From positions 1 to 23,780 of the forward strand of contig JAVCCG010000105.1 in the NCBI GenBank assembly GCA_030765605.1: a DNA stretch of 23,780 bases, in the 5' to 3' direction. The notes below the pieces were generated by a model. The model searched no databases and had not been told where the DNA came from. It was given only the letters and a program-made list of their open reading frames with translations. This stretch comes from Candidatus Alcyoniella australis. GTDB taxonomy: Bacteria > Lernaellota > Lernaellaia > JAVCCG01 > Alcyoniellaceae. Position numbers and translations under genes: made by a program. Every line of letters begins with the position of its first letter. The first letter of the stretch is position 1. Positions 1-23,780 of this stretch are shown piece after piece.

Positions 1-1
1 G

Positions 2-760
2 CCCATGGGCGTTGCGTTGCCGTTGCGCGATGCGCTGAACATGCTCTGCGAGCAGTCGGACCTGGGGCCGCTGCTGCGCGGTTTGCAGATCGAGCCCGAG
101 GCCCAGTGGTTCGAGGCGACTCTCGAGCAGCTGAGACCGCTGGTCGAGACGCAGAGCTTTGAGGCGGCCGTTGCTGCGGGCGCTTTACCCATGCGCCCCG
201 AACGCGAGGTGATCGGACACTTCCGCAATGCGGGGTTCCCCACGCCGGACGGCCGCGCGCACCTGGCCCAAGGGCTGGAGACGGCGAGCGCCTTGCCCGC
301 TGTCAGCGACCGCGAGCTGCTGCCGATCGTCTATCAGCGCAACGTGATGCGCGGTGAGCTGGCGCGTTGCAAGTGGCTTGCTGAGATTGCCCACGACACT
401 CCGCTGCTGATCCCGGCGGCGACCGCCGCGCGGCTGAATATCCGCGACGGCCGCAGACTGACGCTCAAGCTTGCCGGACGCGAGCTGCAGGGCAGGGCGG
501 TGATTACCCAGGGGTTGGCCCCGGGATGCGTGGGACTTGCCGACGCAGTGGGCAGGAAGAATTGCGGACCGTTCGCCGAGGCCCGGCCCTGGCCCGCGCC
601 CGCGGAGCTGGCCGCCAAAGACGTTGACTTCGACGTCGAGCTGGTCTGGTGGGGACGCGCGGGGAACGGCGAGCGCGTGCGCGGCATGCTGACCATCGAG
701 TTCGACGAGCGCCGCGGCTGCCTGGTGATCGCGCCGACCGCGCTGGAGCTTGAGGCGTGA
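2..760 (+). CDS. Molybdopterin oxidoreductase, C-terminal part (partial, cut by window edge)
   Basis: The reading frame is open to the left edge, so only the last 250 or so residues are visible and the start lies outside. The segment GFPTPDGRAHL resembles the 'GF-T-SGK' stretch that precedes the last domain of DMSO-reductase-family enzymes. The following stretch, roughly from LLPIVYQRNVMRG through TPLLIPAATAARLNIRDG to AVITQGLAPGCVGL, has the pattern of the molybdopterin-dinucleotide-binding domain (a Pro/Ile run, then 'A-LNI-DG', then 'G--PG-V'). In this family the domain grips the Mo/W-bisPGD cofactor. The substrate cannot be told, because the N-terminal Fe-S motif, any Tat signal and the Mo ligand are not visible. 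Related subunits of Qrc or alternative complex III have lost the metal, so a structural, non-catalytic role is possible. The stop codon overlaps the GTG start of the next gene. Confidence 0.75.
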   Translation, partial: PMGVALPLRDALNMLCEQSDLGPLLRGLQIEPEAQWFEATLEQLRPLVETQSFEAAVAAGALPMRPEREVIGHFRNAGFPTPDGRAHLAQGLETASALPAVSDRELLPIVYQRNVMRGELARCKWLAEIAHDTPLLIPAATAARLNIRDGRRLTLKLAGRELQGRAVITQGLAPGCVGLADAVGRKNCGPFAEARPWPAPAELAAKDVDFDVELVWWGRAGNGERVRGMLTIEFDERRGCLVIAPTALELEA

Positions 761-1677
761 GCGCGTTGCGCCGCGTGCTTGACCGCGCCTGGGCCCTGGC
801 CATGGCGGTCAATCCGTTTGCCGTGTTCGCGGGCCTGCTGCTGCTGGGAGTGGTCGGGCTCAGCGCGATGGTGCAGTACAACCAGGCCAACGATTTCTGC
901 CTTAAGTGCCACCATCAGCGCGGTCCGTACCAGCCCATTGATTTGGAATCCACGGCCCACGAGCCGTACGTGAAAAACCTGCGTAGCGAGGCCCACGTCA
1001 ACTGCCTGGAGTGCCATACGGACAAGGAGTTGATCAACTTCTTTGAGCTGGTGGCAGTGCGCGCGGGCCGCGGGTTTGACGAGTTGACCAACCCGCCGCG
1101 CATGCAGGCCCCGCGCGAGGGTCCGCAGTACGCGGACGAGCTGTGTTTGCGCTGCCATTACAAGATTCTCGAGACCGACGAAATCAAGGGGCAGCGGCTG
1201 CTCGAGCTCAGCGACCGGCTGCGCGTCATCGGCCTGCGCTTCAGCCATCAGCGGCACTTCCAGGTGCGCGCCTGGACCCCGGAGCTCGAGCGCAGGTTGG
1301 AGCAAATCAACCTCGGCCAAATCCAGGTCGAGCACGAGGAGCTGGAATTTTTACAGCGCGCGCGTCTGGGCCACTGCGCCCAGTGCCACGACCGGTTCTA
1401 CGCCGATCCGTCCAATGCGGATAAGAACGTCAACCTCTATACCAGCAACCCGATGTCCTGCGCCGCGTGCCACCTTGACGCCGACCCGCAGAACCATCCG
1501 GGCAAAGTGCTGGGTCTGCCCAGCGAGCGCAGCTGCCGACGCTGCCACAACGGCGTGCTGCACGGACGAATGCGAATGTTCCTGGCCGACATGGACAGCG
1601 AGGACAAACAGCCCTGCGTCAAGTGCCATCCGGCCTACATGGAAAAACCGCCGATAGTCGCGGAGGACGAAACATGA
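757..1677 (+). CDS. Membrane-anchored seven-heme cytochrome c
   Basis: This 306-residue protein has one N-terminal hydrophobic helix (about residues 18-40) preceded by an Arg-containing N-terminus, so it should be anchored with its body in the periplasm. Seven CXXCH heme c motifs are visible: CLKCH 48, CLECH 83, CLRCH 130, CAQCH 207, CAACH 235, CRRCH 260 and CVKCH 287. Many extra His residues could serve as distal ligands. The anchor followed by closely spaced hemes recalls NapC/NirT quinol dehydrogenases, but heme number and spacing do not match the tetraheme NapC pattern. A charged stretch at about 175-205 lacks hemes and looks helical. The start is GTG at 757 inside the stop of the molybdoenzyme gene, with GGAG about 8 bases upstream. 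The likely role is periplasmic electron transfer between the membrane Fe-S proteins and the molybdoenzyme or an external partner; direction is unknown. Confidence 0.88.
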   Translation: MSALRRVLDRAWALAMAVNPFAVFAGLLLLGVVGLSAMVQYNQANDFCLKCHHQRGPYQPIDLESTAHEPYVKNLRSEAHVNCLECHTDKELINFFELVAVRAGRGFDELTNPPRMQAPREGPQYADELCLRCHYKILETDEIKGQRLLELSDRLRVIGLRFSHQRHFQVRAWTPELERRLEQINLGQIQVEHEELEFLQRARLGHCAQCHDRFYADPSNADKNVNLYTSNPMSCAACHLDADPQNHPGKVLGLPSERSCRRCHNGVLHGRMRMFLADMDSEDKQPCVKCHPAYMEKPPIVAEDET

Positions 1678-2153
1678 CTGTCAGCCGCTTTCACGTCGAG
1701 CCCCTTGACCCGCAGAAAGTGGTCGTGGCCGACGAGATTCTCGACACCAAGTTTCCGCCCGTGGCGCGCTTCCGTCTGCTCAGCCGCGGCATCGAGCCCT
1801 ACCACCGGCTCGATCTGCGCGAGGACAGCGTCGATTTCGACCAAGGCTGCGTGGCCTGCGGCAACTGCATCGACTCCTGCCCCGTGCTGCGGCGCGAGAC
1901 CGAGCGCGTGGACCGCACGGGCCAGCGCACGAGCATGGCGCTGGAGACGTTGGTCGACGAGGACTGCGAACAGTGCTGGGCCTGCGTGCTCTCCTGCCCG
2001 CAGGTCGACACCGAGCTCAAGGACTACATCGTGGACGAGCGCGTGGAGGAGATGATCCCGCCCAATCCGCTGGTGAGCAAACTCGACAACTACTTCATGG
2101 TGCTCGCCGCGTTGGCGTTCGGGATCATGATCGGGATCTTCATCGTCTGGTGA
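1674..2153 (+). CDS. Dicluster [4Fe-4S] ferredoxin with C-terminal transmembrane helix
   Basis: This 159-residue protein has two ferredoxin-type cluster motifs: CVACGNCIDSCP (Cys 59, 62, 65, 69) and CEQCWACVLSCP (Cys 98, 101, 104, 108). A single hydrophobic helix ends the chain (about 141-158, FMVLAALAFGIMIGIFIVW). The first 55 residues show no recognised domain. The start chosen is ATG 1674, which overlaps the cytochrome stop (ATGA) and has GGAGG a few bases upstream; a longer in-frame opening from 1623 lies wholly inside the cytochrome gene. No signal peptide is seen, so the cluster domain is probably cytoplasmic and tethered by its tail. It may take the place of the missing SdhC/FrdC anchor, passing electrons between the flavoprotein/Fe-S pair downstream and the cytochrome upstream. 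That role is inference from gene order. Confidence 0.85.
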   Translation: MTVSRFHVEPLDPQKVVVADEILDTKFPPVARFRLLSRGIEPYHRLDLREDSVDFDQGCVACGNCIDSCPVLRRETERVDRTGQRTSMALETLVDEDCEQCWACVLSCPQVDTELKDYIVDERVEEMIPPNPLVSKLDNYFMVLAALAFGIMIGIFIVW

Positions 2154-2181
2154 GAGCCGGACCGATGCGAGGAGAATAGCG

Positions 2182-2937
2182 ATGGACGAAATTCAGACCA
2201 AGACGCCGCCGCAGACTGCTGACGAGCTGGTGCCGATTTTCATCATGGGCAAGCGCTACATGGTGCCCGGCAGCCTGACGATCCAGAAGGCGTTCGAGTA
2301 TGCGGGCTATAAGCTGGTGCGCGGATGCGGCTGCCGCGGCGGAATTTGCGGCGCCTGCGGTACGCTGTGGCGCGTTCCGGGCAGCTACCGGGTCGAGATC
2401 GGACTGGCCTGCCAGACGATCGTGCAGCCCGATATGTACATCGCCCAGATTCCGTTCTTCCCGGCCAACCGCGCCCAGTACGACGTAACGAAGCTTGAGC
2501 CCACGGCCCAAACCCTCAGCGCGCTGTACCCGGAGTTGCAGCGCTGCATGGGGTGCAACACCTGCACCAAGAGTTGCCCGATGGAGATCGAGGTGATGGA
2601 GTACATCAGCGCGGCGTTGCGCGGCGATATTTTAAAATGCGCCGAGCTGAGCTTCGATTGCGTGATGTGCGGGCTGTGCACCGCGCGTTGTCCGGCGGAG
2701 CTGGCGCAGTACCACATCGCGGAGTTGGCGCGGCGGCTGGCCGGAGTACACCTGATCCCGCGCGCGGAACACCTGACCGAGGTCTGCGAAACGATCGAGC
2801 AGGGCGGGCATCAAGACAAGCTCGAACAGCTCAAGGCGATGGACGAGTCCACGATGCGTCGGACCTACACCGCGCGAACGATCGAGCCGATGGAGACCGA
2901 AGACGACTGGACGCCGCCCGCGGGCGAGCAGTTCTAA
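2182..2937 (+). CDS. SdhB/FrdB-like iron-sulfur subunit with [2Fe-2S] and two [4Fe-4S] motifs
   Basis: The 251-residue protein starts with a [2Fe-2S] ferredoxin-like domain (about 15-100). Candidate ligands are Cys 51, 56, 59 and 77, with an additional Cys 49 in GCGCRGGICGACG. A helical domain follows with two CxxCxxCxxxCP motifs: CMGCNTCTKSCP (Cys 122-132) and CVMCGLCTARCP (Cys 160-170). This overall plan is that of the electron-transfer subunit of succinate dehydrogenase/fumarate reductase. Classical SdhB/FrdB, however, carries [2Fe-2S], [4Fe-4S] and [3Fe-4S], so here the third cluster is predicted to be a full [4Fe-4S], as in HdrC-like proteins. The ATG at 2182 has AGGAGA upstream. It sits 28 bases after the membrane ferredoxin and 16 before the flavoprotein, so it should wire the flavin to the rest of the complex. 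A soluble thiol-linked or other flavoprotein partner system is an alternative. Confidence 0.85.
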   Translation: MDEIQTKTPPQTADELVPIFIMGKRYMVPGSLTIQKAFEYAGYKLVRGCGCRGGICGACGTLWRVPGSYRVEIGLACQTIVQPDMYIAQIPFFPANRAQYDVTKLEPTAQTLSALYPELQRCMGCNTCTKSCPMEIEVMEYISAALRGDILKCAELSFDCVMCGLCTARCPAELAQYHIAELARRLAGVHLIPRAEHLTEVCETIEQGGHQDKLEQLKAMDESTMRRTYTARTIEPMETEDDWTPPAGEQF

Positions 2938-2953
2938 AGGGAGCGAGCGAGCA

Positions 2954-4609
2954 ATGGGATACACCGCTGAGCTGATGGATTCGATCAAACGCGTTGAGGC
3001 CACGCGGCCCCAGCGCGTCCAGAGAGCGCTTGCGGGCGAGCATTTCGAGACCTTGAGTCTCGATCAACGCCAGAAGCGCCTCGAGTTTCACCCGGACTAC
3101 CGCTCCGAGGGGCGCCGGCCGTTGCAAGTCGGCCCCAGCGCGGGCTACGCGCTGTGCCACGAGGTCGCGGAGCAGCTCGAATCGTACTCGCGGATCGACC
3201 CCGACGCGATCGACCTATCGCAGACGGACTACGAGACCGACGTGCTGGTGATCGGCGGCGGCGGCGCGGGCACATCGGCTGCGCTGCTGGCGGCCCAGGC
3301 CGGGGCCAAGGTGCTGATCGCCACCAAGCTGCGCCACGGCGACGCCAACACGATGATGGCCGAGGGCGGAATCCAGGCCGCAAGCAAGGGGCACAAGGAC
3401 AACCCGGCGGCGCACTACCTCGACGTAATGGGCGGCGGGCACTTTAAAAATACGCCCGAATTGGTCGAGACGTTGGTCTCCGAGGCGCCGCTGGTGATCA
3501 GCTGGCTGGAGTCGCTGGGCTGCCTGATGAGCAAGGAAGACGACGGTCGGCTGCGCACGATGCACGGCGGCGGCACCTGTCGCAAGCGGATGCACTACGC
3601 CGCGGACATCACCGGCGCGGAGATCATGCGCACCCTGCGCGACGAGGCGCGTAACCAATCGGACAAGATCCGCGTGATCGAGTTCTCTCCGGCGATCGAG
3701 CTGCTGCTCGATGAGCGCGGAAAGTGCGCGGGCGCGGTGCTGATGAACCTCGAGACCCACGAGCTGTTGACGGTCCGTGCGCGCGCCACGGTGCTGGCCA
3801 CCGGCGGCTCCGGGCGGCTGCACATCCAGGGGTTCATGACCACCAACCACTACGGCGCCACGGCCGACGGGATCGTGATCGCCTATCGCGCGGGTGTGCC
3901 GGTGTGCTTCCTGCACGCGGTGCAGTATCACCCCACCGGTGCGGTCTACCCCGAGCAGGCCGAGGGGATTCTGATCACCGAGAAGGTGCGCGGAGCCGGG
4001 GCCAACGTGCTCAATGCCAAAGGCGAGCAGTTCGTCAATGAGCGCGAGCCGCGCGACGTGGAGGCGGCGAGCATCATCCGCGAGTGCACCGAGCAGGGCA
4101 ACGGCGTGCCGACCCCCACGGGCAAAATCGGCTGCTGGTTGGACAGTCCGATGATCGAAGTGCTCAGAGGGGCGGGCACGGTCAAACGCGAATTCCCGGG
4201 CAAGTACATCATGTACAAGCGCTACGGCATCGACATCAGCAAGCAACCGATGCTGATCTACCCCACGTTGCACTACCAGAACGGCGGGATGGTCTACCGC
4301 GCCGACACCTCGTGCAATCTGCCCGGGCTGTTCATCGCCGGCGAGGTCGGAGGCGGTGTGCACGGCGAGAACCGGCTGATGGGAAACAGCCTGCTCGACG
4401 TGACTGTTTTCGGCCGCATCGCGGGCCGTAGCGCGGCAGCTTTTGCCGCGGATGGAGCAACCGACTCGCCCCTGTCATTGGATCACGTCAGGCGCTATCA
4501 TGAGGCGCTCGCGACCGCGGAGATCGCGGCCGAAAAGATCAGTCCGATGCTACTGCCCGATTATCAAAATGAGCGGGTCAAGGATCGCAGGCTGAAGACC
4601 GAGATCTGA
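2954..4609 (+). CDS. Fumarate reductase/succinate dehydrogenase-type flavoprotein
   Basis: This 551-residue protein belongs to the FrdA/SdhA/L-aspartate oxidase flavoprotein superfamily. After an unusual N-terminal extension of about 95 residues comes the FAD-binding Rossmann motif VLVIGGGGAG (98-106). Residues equivalent to the fumarate-reducing active site are present: HPTG (His 326), EKVRGAGA (Arg 346), HYQNGG (His 440) and GENRLMGNSLLD (Arg 474). The His that binds FAD covalently in SdhA/FrdA (in 'RSHT--A-GG') is replaced by Asn 132 in ANTMMAEGG, so FAD is probably non-covalent. The C-terminal helical domain is short. No signal peptide or Tat motif is seen, so it should be cytoplasmic. 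With the active-site set intact, the reaction is likely interconversion of fumarate/succinate or a related dicarboxylate, but substrate and direction are not proven. SdhA/FrdA in the strict sense is doubtful because no anchor subunit gene lies nearby. Confidence 0.85.
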   Translation: MGYTAELMDSIKRVEATRPQRVQRALAGEHFETLSLDQRQKRLEFHPDYRSEGRRPLQVGPSAGYALCHEVAEQLESYSRIDPDAIDLSQTDYETDVLVIGGGGAGTSAALLAAQAGAKVLIATKLRHGDANTMMAEGGIQAASKGHKDNPAAHYLDVMGGGHFKNTPELVETLVSEAPLVISWLESLGCLMSKEDDGRLRTMHGGGTCRKRMHYAADITGAEIMRTLRDEARNQSDKIRVIEFSPAIELLLDERGKCAGAVLMNLETHELLTVRARATVLATGGSGRLHIQGFMTTNHYGATADGIVIAYRAGVPVCFLHAVQYHPTGAVYPEQAEGILITEKVRGAGANVLNAKGEQFVNEREPRDVEAASIIRECTEQGNGVPTPTGKIGCWLDSPMIEVLRGAGTVKREFPGKYIMYKRYGIDISKQPMLIYPTLHYQNGGMVYRADTSCNLPGLFIAGEVGGGVHGENRLMGNSLLDVTVFGRIAGRSAAAFAADGATDSPLSLDHVRRYHEALATAEIAAEKISPMLLPDYQNERVKDRRLKTEI

Positions 4610-4633: not shown

Positions 4634-4683
4634 GCGCCATGGATAGGGACCGGACATTGCGCCGGTCGACGTTGGAGGAATCA

Positions 4684-6252
4684 ATGGCCAAGAAGGGGAA
4701 GGGCAACAAGCGCCGTAAGGCCGCCGCAGCACCGGGCACAGCCCCGGGCGCGAAGACCCGACCGACGCAGCCTGTCGTGCCCGATCAGCCGCAACAGCCC
4801 GTGGCGCAGCCCAAGCCGCGTCCCAAGTCCGATCAGCCCAAGACGATCCGTCGCACCAGCGGCAAGGGCGAGATGCCCAGCACCAAGGAGACGGCGTCAC
4901 TGTTTATGCCGTTGCTGATCTTCCTTCTGTCGTTTCTGGTCATCGGTCTGGCAACATACATCGTCACCTACCCGCTGAACAAAACGACCAAGATCGAGAT
5001 CATGGCCGACGAGCCGGCCGCTGAAGCGGAGCAGGCGGCCGACGCCGAGCAGTCTTCTGATGCCGAGCAGGCCCCCGAGACGGAGCAGGCGGCCGAGACG
5101 GAGCAGGCGGCCGACGCCGAGCAGGCTTCTGATGCCCCCAAGCCCTCCGAATCTGAGCAGGGCGCAGCTCAGTCCGACGACTTCGTGCTTGAGACCATGG
5201 GACAAGAGGAGCAGACCTCGGCCGAGGAATACGAGGCGGGCGCGCAGATCGAGGAGCTTCCCGAGCGAACAGATCTCGAGGGCGAACAGGCCGCGCCCGA
5301 GGGGGAGCAGCCCGCGGAGGCGGCGGCCGCAACGGCTACGCCCGAGGAAATGAAGACGATCGAGGAATTGATCGGCGCGGGAAAGGTCGCGTTGCTGCAG
5401 AAGGTCGAGACCGTGGGTTTCGTGCTGCTCGGACTATGTCTGATCGGACTGGCGTGTTACCTGCTGGTGCGTTTCAACCTCGAGTATTTCAAGGGACCGT
5501 GGCGCAAGCTGCTCTACGGCCTGGCTGCGGCGCTGTTGGTCTTCAGCGTGCTGCCGCTGCTGCGCGGCATCTCATTCGGCACCGATGTCTTCGATCAGAC
5601 CATCGGGCGCATGGAGCAAATCGACCTCTCGAGCGTGAAGCCCGGCAAATACAGGATGGTGGTCCAAGGCCGTTTCCTGTTGCCCGAGAAAGCGCGCTAC
5701 GAGATGCAGGGCGATTGGTCCCTGGTGCTGGGCGATCGCGGCGGCGGTCAGCGGACCTTCGAGGGCGAGTTCAAGGAGGTGCGGCAACGCCGCAAGTTCT
5801 ACCGCCGGACCCGCGGCTACCACCATCAGGTGCAGACCACCGCTGTGCTGCCGATTAAACTCGCAGCGAACCGTAGCTACTTTCTGCGCAACGATCGACT
5901 CGGCGAAGAGCTGGAGAGCGAACTGCGCGTACAGCTCTACCGGCCGTACTATCCGCTGTGGCCGTTTCTGATCATCGGGCCGCTGCTGGTGTTGCTCGCG
6001 ATTTGGGTTGACGCGCTGCTTAAGGCGCGGCGCTTCAGGGCGATCGTCAACTGGTGCGTTTCGAGCACTGTCGGACTGGGGCTGTACCACGCCCTGCGCG
6101 CGCTGCCCAACGAGACGCTCAACAACTACGTCATGGACTTGCTGCTCGGTGCGTTCTTCGGGCTGTTTTTCGGAGTCTTGATCAGCTACGCCCTGGAGCC
6201 GCTGGCCAACAAGCTCAACGTCCGCTACAAGATCAGTATCCGAGAGGTGTGA
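4684..6252 (+). CDS. Unrecognised multi-spanning membrane protein with acidic hexapeptide repeat
   Basis: I do not recognise this 522-residue protein. The order along the chain is: a Lys/Arg/Pro-rich N-terminus (1-70); a first membrane helix (about 74-97); an Ala/Glu/Gln-rich acidic segment (about 108-220) holding eight six-residue repeats; two helices (about 242-263 and 275-293); a soluble loop of about 130 residues rich in Arg/Lys (295-422) that looks beta-rich; and two or three further helices (about 425-446, 454-472, 483-503). The basic N-terminus would be cytoplasmic, which puts the acidic segment outside. The start chosen is ATG 4684, with GGAGG 6 bases upstream (4674-4678); an in-frame ATG at 4639 has no such site. 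It lies one base before the M20 peptidase gene, so the two are probably co-transcribed. No catalytic motif is visible, and function is unknown. Confidence 0.8.
   Translation: MAKKGKGNKRRKAAAAPGTAPGAKTRPTQPVVPDQPQQPVAQPKPRPKSDQPKTIRRTSGKGEMPSTKETASLFMPLLIFLLSFLVIGLATYIVTYPLNKTTKIEIMADEPAAEAEQAADAEQSSDAEQAPETEQAAETEQAADAEQASDAPKPSESEQGAAQSDDFVLETMGQEEQTSAEEYEAGAQIEELPERTDLEGEQAAPEGEQPAEAAAATATPEEMKTIEELIGAGKVALLQKVETVGFVLLGLCLIGLACYLLVRFNLEYFKGPWRKLLYGLAAALLVFSVLPLLRGISFGTDVFDQTIGRMEQIDLSSVKPGKYRMVVQGRFLLPEKARYEMQGDWSLVLGDRGGGQRTFEGEFKEVRQRRKFYRRTRGYHHQVQTTAVLPIKLAANRSYFLRNDRLGEELESELRVQLYRPYYPLWPFLIIGPLLVLLAIWVDALLKARRFRAIVNWCVSSTVGLGLYHALRALPNETLNNYVMDLLLGAFFGLFFGVLISYALEPLANKLNVRYKISIREV
5020..5163 (+). 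repeat. Tandem 18-bp (hexapeptide) repeat inside the membrane protein gene
   Basis: Eight consecutive six-codon units encode the pattern (A/S/P)(D/E)(A/T)EQ(A/S): AEAEQA, ADAEQS, SDAEQA, PETEQA, AETEQA, ADAEQA, then the decayed SDAPKP and SESEQG. At DNA level, two adjacent 18-bp copies (5077-5094 and 5095-5112) are identical. A 37-bp block at 5028-5064 recurs at 5100-5136 with one mismatch, an offset of four units. This is a sign of recent slippage or duplication, and copy number may vary between strains. Confidence 0.85.
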
Positions 6253-13396: not shown

Positions 13397-13975
13397 ATGA
13401 AAGGTCGAAAGTACAAACAGTCCGACGGGATCTGGAGTAGGTTGACCAGACGCGGCCTGCTGATCGGCTCATCCGCCGCACTAGTGACCGCTACGCTGTT
13501 GCGTGGCCGGGCTGTTTCGGGCGATGGACCGCCGATCGACGAGTACTGGTGGAGGAAGGTTCCGATGGACCTAGATCAGAAAGTGATCAAGACCGACCAG
13601 GAGTGGAGCGAGTTGCTGAGCGAACAACAGTTCAACGTGACGCGCAAGAAGGGGACCGAGCGCGCTTTTACCGGCGAGTATTGGGAGACCAAGAACGAGG
13701 GGACCTATCGTTGCGTTTGCTGCGGCAATCCGCTGTTCTCATCCCAGAGTAAGTTCGATTCGGGCTCCGGCTGGCCGAGCTTCTGGCAGCCGATCGCGCC
13801 CCAGCGCGTGGTCACCATTCCGGACTTCAGCATTCTGGGCAAGCGTACCGAGGTGCTGTGCAGCCGCTGCAACGCTCACCTGGGACATGTTTTCAACGAT
13901 GGTCCGCAGCCCACGGGTAAGCGTTTTTGCGTCAACTCGGTCGCGATGGTGCTCGACACCGAGGCAGGGGAATAA
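13397..13975 (+). CDS. msrB: Peptide-methionine (R)-S-oxide reductase with Tat signal
   Basis: The 192-residue protein repairs Met-R-sulfoxide in proteins. The N-terminus, RLTRRGLLIGSSAALVTATLL (15-35), has a twin-arginine motif followed by a hydrophobic stretch, so export by Tat is likely. The MsrB domain spans about 63-188. It has zinc Cys pairs CVCC (106, 109) and CSRC (155, 158), the GSGWPSFW substrate segment, HLGHVFNDGP, and catalytic Cys 178 in RFCVNS. The ATG at 13397 has no clear ribosome binding site, while an in-frame ATG at 13565 (Met 57) follows GGAGGAAGG. A second, cytoplasmic form of 136 residues holding the whole catalytic domain is therefore possible. The gene ends 6 bases before the convergent GspE-like gene. 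Confidence 0.92.
   Translation: MKGRKYKQSDGIWSRLTRRGLLIGSSAALVTATLLRGRAVSGDGPPIDEYWWRKVPMDLDQKVIKTDQEWSELLSEQQFNVTRKKGTERAFTGEYWETKNEGTYRCVCCGNPLFSSQSKFDSGSGWPSFWQPIAPQRVVTIPDFSILGKRTEVLCSRCNAHLGHVFNDGPQPTGKRFCVNSVAMVLDTEAGE
13551..13567 (+). promoter_or_regulatory. Strong internal ribosome binding site and start codon in msrB
   Basis: GGAGGAAGG (13551-13559) lies 5 bases before the in-frame ATG at 13565. This ATG starts just after the Tat signal region and just before the MsrB fold. The codons are those of Trp-Arg-Lys, so the match could be chance, but it is far better than anything before the upstream ATG. Confidence 0.4.
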
Positions 13976-21816: not shown

Positions 21817-23124
21817 TCAAGATTGGTCGACCTCGTCGGCACGCACCAAAGCGTATCTGAAGGTGATCGGCCCGATCACCTGGTTGATGGCGATGGTGGC
21901 CACAATCAGCGTACGCAGGTTGCTGCCCAGTTCCGGCAGCGAGCGGCCGATCTCCGAGGCAATGCCCAGGCTGACCCCGGCCTGAGAGATGAACGCCAGC
22001 CAGAGGTAGGGGCCGTACTCCTTGTTGCGCTCGCGCCGATTGAGTGCCAGCCGCGTGCCCAGCCAAGTAAAGACCAGCCGGGCGAGGATCAGCAGCAGCG
22101 CCATGGGCCACATCAGCTTTAGTGCGGGCAGGTCGATCTTGGCCCCGGCCACGGCGAAGAAAATGATGAACACCGGCAGCGAGTAGCGCTCGAGGGCCTC
22201 GATCATTCGCGGGCCCTGCTTGGAGTAGTTCATCACGTAGAACCCTGCGGCGATGTTCAGCAGCACTCCGGACAAATGCAGCTCGCGCCCGAGTTCGACG
22301 CTGAGGAACGACAGCGCCAGCAGCAGCAGCGGCAGGCCGGTTTTAACCCGGCTGATGTAGGCCGAGAGCAACCAGCCCAGCACGATACCCAGGCCCAGCG
22401 AGCCGAGCACCTCCCAGAAGACCAGCAATCCCACGCGCGCGTCGGCTGCGCCTTCCTGATCGGTGAGCAGTCTCGCGGCGATCAGCACTACCGAGAACAA
22501 CACCATCACCAGCACGTCCTTGAGCACGGTCACGCCCAGTGTGATCGTGGACATCGGTCCGCGGGCGCGGCACTCGTTGATCACGGCCACGGTGGTGGCC
22601 GGCGAATTGGCCGTGCAGACCACGGCCAGCAGCAGCGCCAGGCTCAGCATTGCGGGCCAGCCCAGATGGCCGCCGAATGGCAGCAGGCCGATCAGCGGAA
22701 ACATCAGCAACGAGGTGCCGAAGAACACCACGATCAATTGGGCCAGGCTGACGCGGCCGATGGTGGCGATCCGCGGTTTAAGCTCGGCGATTCGCAGCTC
22801 GCCGCCCGCGGTGAAGGCGATCAGCCCCAGGGCCAGGCTGTCGATCAGCCCCAGCCTGTCCAGGGTCCGCGTCGAGAGCACGCCGCAGTGCGGCAACAGC
22901 GCGCCGAACACGAACGGCCCAAAGAACAGCCCGGCCAGCAAATAGCCGGTGAGCATCGGCATGCGCAGCCGCAGGGTGTAAGCGCCGATGATGTACGAGG
23001 CCAGCAGCAGGAAGCCAAGGGCGAACACCGCCGACTCGGCGCCGCTCGCGTCGGCTCCGGGCGAAAGCAGCATGATGACCGCGCTGAGCACGATCAACGC
23101 CAGCAGCAGCAGCGCGCCCCTCAT
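21817..23124 (-). CDS. Cation:proton antiporter (CPA2/Kef-like), second of a pair
   Basis: This 435-residue protein is almost entirely hydrophobic, with about twelve membrane helices. Family signs are MLTGYLLAGLFFGP (57-70), the LGLIAFTAGGEL segment (99-110) and the crossed-helix region CTANSPATTVAVINE (170-184), followed by TVLKDVLVM (199-207; Asp 203 where CPA2 members keep a transport Asp). It lacks the C-terminal TrkA-N/RCK domain of Kef channels. It exchanges Na+ or K+ for H+; which ion is not decided. ATG 23124 overlaps the stop of the preceding antiporter-like gene by four bases, so the two should be made in fixed ratio. Confidence 0.85.
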   Translation of the reverse strand: MRGALLLLALIVLSAVIMLLSPGADASGAESAVFALGFLLLASYIIGAYTLRLRMPMLTGYLLAGLFFGPFVFGALLPHCGVLSTRTLDRLGLIDSLALGLIAFTAGGELRIAELKPRIATIGRVSLAQLIVVFFGTSLLMFPLIGLLPFGGHLGWPAMLSLALLLAVVCTANSPATTVAVINECRARGPMSTITLGVTVLKDVLVMVLFSVVLIAARLLTDQEGAADARVGLLVFWEVLGSLGLGIVLGWLLSAYISRVKTGLPLLLLALSFLSVELGRELHLSGVLLNIAAGFYVMNYSKQGPRMIEALERYSLPVFIIFFAVAGAKIDLPALKLMWPMALLLILARLVFTWLGTRLALNRRERNKEYGPYLWLAFISQAGVSLGIASEIGRSLPELGSNLRTLIVATIAINQVIGPITFRYALVRADEVDQS

Positions 23125-23780
23125 CGGATACCCCGGCGTTTGAGCAGCCAGCTTGTGCTGCCCCAGGCCAACAGCTCGTTGATCAGCAGCGCGAGGATCA
23201 TCACTGAGAGCACGGCCGACGACGAATCGCCGGGGAACGCGCGCTGGTAATCAAGGGCCATCGCCAGGGCCAGCCCGCCCTGTCCGATCAGGCCCAGGCC
23301 GCCGATCCGCGCCGGCGTCGCTCCCTGGGCGTTGCGTCCCAGCCCGGCCAGCGCGGCAAAGCCGCCGACTTTGGCAACGCCGCGCACGATCACGTAGAGC
23401 AGCGCGACCAGCGTCAGTTCGCCCAGCCGCTGCGGATTCCATAGCGCGCCGACCGCCAATAGAAACAGCACGTAGATCGTGCGCTCGGAATTGCCCAGCA
23501 GCTCGTAGACCGATTCCTTGCGCACCGAAAGGTTGCAAAATGCCGCACCTGCGGCTACTCCCAGGAACAACGGCGAGAGCCGCAGTACGCCCGCCGCGCC
23601 GGAGAAGAACGCCACCACGCCCAGGATCAACGCCAAGTTGACCTGCGGGCCCGGTCGCTCGGGGAGCAGCTCGCGCAGCAGCAGCGCCGCGAGAAGTCCC
23701 AACCCGATCGACAGCGCCAGCCACAGCAGTCCGCTTGCGGGCGAGATCGTACCCACGGCTGCCGGGCGTGAGGCCAGGGC
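23121..23780 (-). CDS. Cation:proton antiporter-like membrane protein, first of the pair (partial)
   Basis: The frame is open to the right edge, so the 5' part lies outside and at least 220 C-terminal residues are seen. They form about six to eight membrane helices, with the segments SPLFLGVAAGAAFCNL and NSERTIYVLFLLAVGALW and the closing GLIGQGGLALAMALDYQRAF. These resemble the second half of CPA2-type antiporters, where 'G-I-RGE' or 'SQAG' helices occupy the same place (compare SQAGVSLGIASEIG in the next gene). The substrate ion is unknown. A GTG at 23754-23756 could serve as a start, but it would leave half an antiporter, so a longer gene is favoured. Confidence 0.7.
   Translation of the reverse strand, partial: ALASRPAAVGTISPASGLLWLALSIGLGLLAALLLRELLPERPGPQVNLALILGVVAFFSGAAGVLRLSPLFLGVAAGAAFCNLSVRKESVYELLGNSERTIYVLFLLAVGALWNPQRLGELTLVALLYVIVRGVAKVGGFAALAGLGRNAQGATPARIGGLGLIGQGGLALAMALDYQRAFPGDSSSAVLSVMILALLINELLAWGSTSWLLKRRGIR

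Follow-up and report, generated by a model that had tools for sequence, protein, structure and literature searches.

The window analysed here, 23,780 nucleotides that make up contig C105 of Candidatus Alcyoniella australis, begins inside a gene cassette that may encode one membrane-spanning electron-transfer complex with a cytoplasmic fumarate reductase end, a reading for and against which we consider the chances evenly balanced. Five genes on the plus strand form the part of the cassette that lies in the window. M (2–760) encodes the C-terminal third of a 721-residue molybdopterin-family protein of the PhsA/PsrA/QrcB-like type, the start of which lies on another contig (C97), and is followed by C (757–1677), a heptaheme cytochrome c with an N-terminal membrane anchor and a NapC/NrfH-like start, and by X (1674–2153), a dicluster ferredoxin with a C-terminal membrane helix that serves as the marker of the cassette. 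S (2182–2937) encodes a subunit with one 2Fe-2S and two 4Fe-4S clusters that is related to FrdB and TfrB and lacks the 3Fe-4S site and the CCG domain, and A (2954–4609) a TfrA/FrdA-like flavoprotein with a conserved N-terminal extension of about 90 residues, in which the Succ_DH_flav_C domain is unmatched. A first-pass annotation of this DNA had described five same-strand genes with gaps between −4 and +28 bases; the reading frames and the gaps (−4 for M-C, −4 for C-X, +28 for X-S and +16 for S-A) bear this out, and Pfam and NCBIfam searches agree with the naming.

The fumarate reductase assignment is carried by the active site of A. The protein matches FAD_binding_2 with an E-value of 9e-71, and its best family match is TfrA with 333 bits (cut-off 718), ahead of SdhA/FrdA (276 bits) and NadB (256 bits). 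Alignment to solved SdhA and relatives shows that the residues which handle fumarate and succinate, i.e. H326, T342, E343, R367, H440 and R474, are kept in 84–85 of the 85 homologues, which supports a C4-dicarboxylate enzyme. The position of the histidine that binds flavin adenine dinucleotide (FAD) covalently is occupied by asparagine (Asn132 in A) in all 85 homologues. In the E. coli FrdA protein, loss of this histidine abolishes succinate oxidation and spares fumarate reduction. Since the catalytic residues are kept but the covalent-FAD histidine is absent, fumarate reduction is favoured for A, and a fumarate reductase is the more likely identity. That A instead acts on a different unsaturated substrate or on an amino acid would be in line with the membership of aspartate oxidase and urocanate reductase in the FAD_binding_2 family and with the scores of A, which stay below every curated NCBIfam cut-off shown; given the ranking of TfrA ahead of SdhA/FrdA and NadB and the invariant C4-dicarboxylate residues, we consider such a substrate very unlikely.

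Both X and S match dicluster Fer4 families of Pfam. Of 80 homologues of S, 79 retain all four 2Fe-2S cysteines (C51, C56, C59 and C77), and all 80 retain the eight cysteines of the two 4Fe-4S quartets. S reaches 19 bits against the dhsB model (cut-off 88), and the Pfam search returned no CCG domain match for it. X carries its single hydrophobic helix at residues 142–160 and retains 58–62% identity across phyla. Naming X an HdrC protein is unjustified, as only the common dicluster ferredoxin core aligns with soluble HdrC (hhalign probability 92).

The cassette extends beyond the left end of the window. Window positions 1–127 are identical to the reverse-complemented end of contig C97 (L003), an identity that looks like an assembly overlap, and we believe the join because the M frame reads through it and the same gene order is intact in other genomes. 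The joined operon comprises 13 tightly spaced genes, NHL, P, U, w, E, F, B, D, M, C, X, S and A, whose intergenic distances are short or negative (at most +28 bases), and its eight upstream genes reach about 7.6 kb to the left of window base 1. In window coordinates these encode an NHL-repeat protein (−7574 to −6612), a small protein P with a CxxC motif (−6612 to −6292), the membrane protein U with a predicted DASS fold (−6295 to −4592), the 51-residue protein w (−4595 to −4440), E with a helix and ferredoxin motifs, the second ferredoxin of the unit (−4433 to −3882), F with an FMN_bind-type domain and a dicluster ferredoxin (−3885 to −2890), B (−2897 to −2292), which is closest to TtrB/DsrO/PsrB, and D (−2298 to −1402). 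Full-length M spans −1405 to 760. The DASS-fold protein U, the FMN_bind-type protein F and the second ferredoxin E thus belong to the unit, and all three are absent from the picture drawn by the first-pass annotation, which missed the eight upstream genes solely since they lie beyond the end of the window.

This extension also bears on the quinone side. D belongs to the NrfD family (PF03916, 5e-40) and is probably a quinone-binding subunit, and B aligns to Thermus thermophilus PsrB with 194 bits. The first-pass annotation had suggested looking to the left for an NrfD-type membrane subunit and for the N-terminus of the molybdoenzyme, and both are present on C97. The interpretation given there holds only in part: the proposal that the usual quinone anchor is bypassed is not supported, as this NrfD subunit and its PsrB-like partner are encoded directly upstream in the same operon. 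The assignment of M to the molybdopterin proteins holds, since the full protein matches Molybdopterin (PF00384) and Molybdop_Fe4S4 (PF04879) and retains the Fe4S4 motif; the term molybdoenzyme is doubtful. M scores 186 bits against PhsA and 160 bits against QrcB, both under the cut-off, and the position of the Mo-ligand cysteine of PsrA is a glycine in the window and variable among relatives. M has lost the cysteine ligand to Mo and may not be an enzyme. M may still bind Mo, as some enzymes, e.g. AioA, have no protein ligand to Mo. By analogy with QrcB, which carries no redox cofactor (PMC13059093), catalysis by M is likely lost. The cytochrome C matches the cytochrome c7 and the N-terminal NapC/NirT families of Pfam and possesses seven CXXCH motifs, a number also present in its relatives, and one N-terminal hydrophobic helix; a search by sequence found no relative of solved structure.

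The source genome is 98% complete in 157 contigs, and most of the relatives compared are metagenome assemblies. Among them, the order of the cassette is kept in two genomes (G002 and G004) and, as separate pieces, in G006, which takes it to another family of the same class. It is also kept at the loci L057/L154 and L058 and in four genomes of the KSB1 phylum (G387, G388, G454 and G457), with a contig fragment in a fifth (G452). A partial copy in a member of the Syntrophaceae (L050) reads C-X-S-A and then B-D-M. In two genomes of yet another family, G126 and G263, U and E are found close to a contig end and X close to a different one; the U-E group also includes w and F in G263, and S-A comes after X in G126. 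Other families and another phylum show the M-C-X-S-A block in the same order, and the arrangement is therefore not due to chance. The first-pass annotation had made its claim depend on conservation of the five-gene order in relatives, and this order is found in the sister family as well as in KSB1. Of 386 sampled genomes, 6 encode X, and these 6 and no others encode U; the corresponding chance figure of 2e-13 overstates the independence of these genomes, which form two related groups. Two further genomes, G007 and G011, contain S-A and lack U.

The pair S-A is an exchangeable reductase module. Among 80 relatives of A taken from a species-genome collection, the neighbours of S-A are mostly genes for HdrC-HdrB, HdrA-MvhD, FlxAB or the MvhGA hydrogenase and, in a few cases, the membrane set, and the slot between the two halves, which is filled by X here, is filled by soluble HdrC-HdrB in relatives. 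In Pseudoclostridium thermosuccinogenes, an operon of Flx-Hdr and a fumarate reductase has been described as a succinate operon, is up about 4-fold under CO2 limitation and ends with a possible succinate transporter (PMC7282089); from the gene arrangement we infer that its proteins would be of the same family as S-A. In a tubeworm symbiont, tfrAB is interspersed with flxABCD-hdrABC, for which joint action was proposed (PMC6315080). The wide occurrence of S-A without a membrane module, together with the resemblance of the membrane set to Qrc and Psr, which act alone, would fit two units that are merely co-transcribed, with S-A as a soluble fumarate reductase linked to ferredoxin or a thiol and M-B-D-C as a separate Qrc/Psr-like quinone oxidoreductase. 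This is unlikely in our view, as the two halves are separated by the membrane-anchored X, which the sampled genomes contain only together with U and which takes the place of HdrC-HdrB in relatives, and membrane-type S-A occurs on 3–4 separate branches of the A tree. Since the pairing sits on several separate branches, S-A and the membrane module were either assembled repeatedly or moved repeatedly as a set. In G126, S-A is closely followed by a cytochrome b-like gene and by a gene for a 355-residue protein that has six CXXCH motifs (L138, 5685–7437). The end of contig C98 of the source genome carries HdrB- and HdrA-like genes (L140, 8096–9978), so that this genome also seems to possess a soluble Hdr system outside the cassette.

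The membrane protein U is an unexpected member of the unit. Pfam and NCBIfam, including the RnfA/E families, gave no match to U except weak CitMHS matches for its two most divergent members (for the G263 homologue 4e-5, under the gathering score), and no relative of solved structure was found by sequence. The two halves of U are homologous, with repeats that align at z 26–35. A structural model from 4 sequences was poor (predicted local distance difference test, pLDDT, 52); we hence used a model from 8 sequences (pLDDT 72, predicted template modelling score 0.76). This model matches NaS1 with Z 21.8 (root-mean-square deviation, rmsd, 4.0; 414 residues aligned), NaDC3-succinate with Z 20.4 (rmsd 4.1; 405 aligned), ArsB with Z 17.2 and VcINDY with fumarate with Z 14.5. 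U is thus predicted to have the inverted-repeat fold of DASS carriers with two re-entrant hairpins. RnfA and RnfE are not among the fold matches, which counts neither for nor against a relation. Four cysteines, C127, C171, C365 and C408, are invariant in the 8 sequences. Judged by where the model places the ends of the helices, all four fall at helix breaks, and C127 and C365 occupy the hairpin tips. In VcINDY, the hairpin tips carry the SNT motifs for substrate and sodium. In U, the tips read LPCGR and LSCSR, and the SNT motif is absent there.

Two readings of U follow from these data. The more conservative one is that U is a C4-dicarboxylate carrier that brings fumarate in and succinate out while electrons cross the membrane otherwise, which is compatible with fumarate reduction by S-A and falls only slightly short of an even chance. 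It draws on the predicted similarity to NaDC3 and VcINDY in complex with C4-dicarboxylates, on the sub-gathering CitMHS match of the G263 homologue and on the Pseudoclostridium operon, which likewise ends in a possible succinate transporter. The cysteines in place of the SNT motif speak against a carrier, as does the distribution of U, which tracks X and not S-A (compare G007 and G011). The bolder and in our estimate doubtful reading is that U is a transporter fold turned electron wire, in which the four cysteines at the DASS substrate site would hold a mid-membrane Fe-S cluster, similar to RnfA-RnfE with unrelated-looking sequence, and relay electrons between F, E and X and the side of the NrfD and heptaheme proteins. 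In RnfA-RnfE, a membrane 2Fe-2S cluster is bound by four cysteines located on inner helices that are broken (PMC12174285). On this reading, the cassette would represent a transmembrane electron-transfer complex of a new class, with a fumarate reductase at its end.

The genomic context of the cassette bears on the direction of the reaction. No dhsB match over the cut-off was found in the source genome, in G126 and G263 or in the genomes of L050, L057 and L058. The Sdh_cyt anchor (PF01127) was found neither in the operon nor in any cassette genome searched, with a model of limited sensitivity, which matches in 7 of the 14 control genomes. In the source genome, both results support the view that FrdAB-like subunits take the place of the usual complex II, and the cassette may be the only complex-II-type enzyme of the source organism. 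A class I fumarase is likewise not found in this genome, where the single strong FumC-like gene gets its highest score as an aspartase; aspartate could therefore supply fumarate. Complex-II-family enzymes can run both ways. Hence we also weighed a succinate dehydrogenase, in which A would oxidise succinate and send electrons outward via X, the membrane set and the heptaheme cytochrome to menaquinone or to acceptors outside the cell, with help from the proton motive force. The lack of another SdhB-type protein over the cut-off would suit this direction, as would the NapC/NrfH-type multiheme cytochrome. The asparagine at the covalent-FAD position in all 85 homologues argues against it, given the loss of succinate oxidation in E. 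coli FrdA without this histidine, and so does the placement of the Flx-Hdr relatives in a succinate-producing operon (PMC7282089). We thus regard succinate oxidation as improbable.

For the preferred reading of a fumarate-reducing complex, we propose that the PsrB/NrfD pair B and D would oxidise menaquinol near the periplasmic face, where M, as a structural and non-catalytic subunit, and the heptaheme cytochrome C would collect or exchange electrons, perhaps with periplasmic donors. Electrons would then traverse the membrane via the accessory proteins U, F and E to the tail-anchored ferredoxin X, which would feed the Fe-S clusters of S and subsequently the FAD of A for the reduction of fumarate to succinate. 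Gene content and order, conservation, the cofactor and active-site residues and the lack of a canonical SdhB/FrdB in the source genome are observed. We infer the single complex, including the physical coupling of S-A to the rest, as well as which quinone is used, by what route and in which direction electrons flow, and how they cross the membrane. Electron transfer from menaquinol to fumarate is only slightly downhill, and a periplasmic-side quinol site with inward electron flow would therefore need compensation. Several points weigh against this scheme. The set is known from its genes only, and a transmembrane conduit with cofactors is putative: D has no cofactor, and C and X contribute one helix each. 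The SGAT flavinylation motif is kept in F of G263 (VDAVSGATYTS; PF04205, 32.9 bits) and lost in F of the source genome, where it is degenerate. S-A could also act alone with a soluble ferredoxin. Moreover, dhsB matches over the cut-off are present in G002, G004 and G006, and because a canonical SdhB is also present there, the cassette must do something additional in these genomes.

Further features lie to either side of the operon. On C97, three consecutive paralogues with a zinc-ribbon-like start and a subsequent multi-helix membrane domain occupy −10738 to −7731 in window coordinates. Window positions 5010–5161 form a tandem repeat with units of 18, 36 and 72 bases within the gene of a 537-residue membrane protein (4639–6252) that shows an acidic E-Q-A-A repeat and no match in Pfam or NCBIfam. 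A methionine sulfoxide reductase B-like gene with a leader resembling those of the twin-arginine translocation pathway is located at 13397–13975. On the minus strand at 21817–23756, two adjacent reading frames of 435 and 211 residues overlap by 4 bases and taken together resemble a single Na+/H+ antiporter-type protein whose gene a frameshift may have split.

The cassette was also compared to described systems. In the open-access literature we found no complex that joins NrfD, FMN-binding, heptaheme and molybdopterin proteins with a fumarate reductase; a survey of NrfD complexes (PMC8076601) is silent on fumarate and flavoproteins, as is one of transmembrane systems linked to flavinylation (PMC8238504) on NrfD and molybdopterin. 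Like the menaquinone reductase QrcABCD, the cassette joins NrfD, four-cluster Fe-S, inactive-looking molybdopterin-family and multiheme subunits. It differs from Qrc in the scores of M, B and D against the QrcB, QrcC and QrcD equivalog models (160, 135 and 50 bits versus cut-offs of 440, 400 and 570), in its seven hemes, in the N-terminal Fe4S4 motif of M and in the additional proteins U, E, F, X, S and A. PsrABC and PhsABC share the NrfD-type subunit and the alignments of B to PsrB and of M to PsrA, whereas M lacks the Mo-ligand cysteine and its operon is shared with hemes and a fumarate reductase. The FMN_bind-type domain and dicluster ferredoxin of F recall Rnf and Nqr, as do the four core cysteines in the two homologous repeats of U, which parallel those of RnfA-RnfE for the membrane 2Fe-2S cluster (PMC12174285); U differs in its lack of RnfA/E matches and in its predicted DASS fold. 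The strict pairing of X and U, together with the four cysteines in a DASS-type fold, makes U a concrete candidate for a new way of transmembrane electron carriage.

With complex II (SdhABCD/FrdABCD), the cassette shares the FrdA-type catalytic residues of A and the Fe-S partner S, but not the covalent-FAD histidine, the 3Fe-4S site or the Sdh_cyt anchor. As the cassette may be the sole complex-II-type enzyme in several anaerobic lineages, genome annotations that look for SdhB and SdhC would miss it. TfrAB and the Pseudoclostridium Hdr/Flx fumarate reductase (PMC7282089) are like S-A in that A is closest to TfrA, that Fe-S subunit and flavoprotein are adjacent and that the relatives of S-A beside Flx-Hdr show the same arrangement. 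In contrast to these systems, the operon described here contains no CCG/HdrB domain and no Hdr, Flx or Mvh gene, and the partner of S-A is a membrane module of NrfD, hemes and X. The fumarate reductase core thus appears as an interchangeable plug, cytoplasmic and possibly bifurcating when combined with Hdr, Flx or Mvh proteins, and membrane- and quinone-linked when combined with the cassette.

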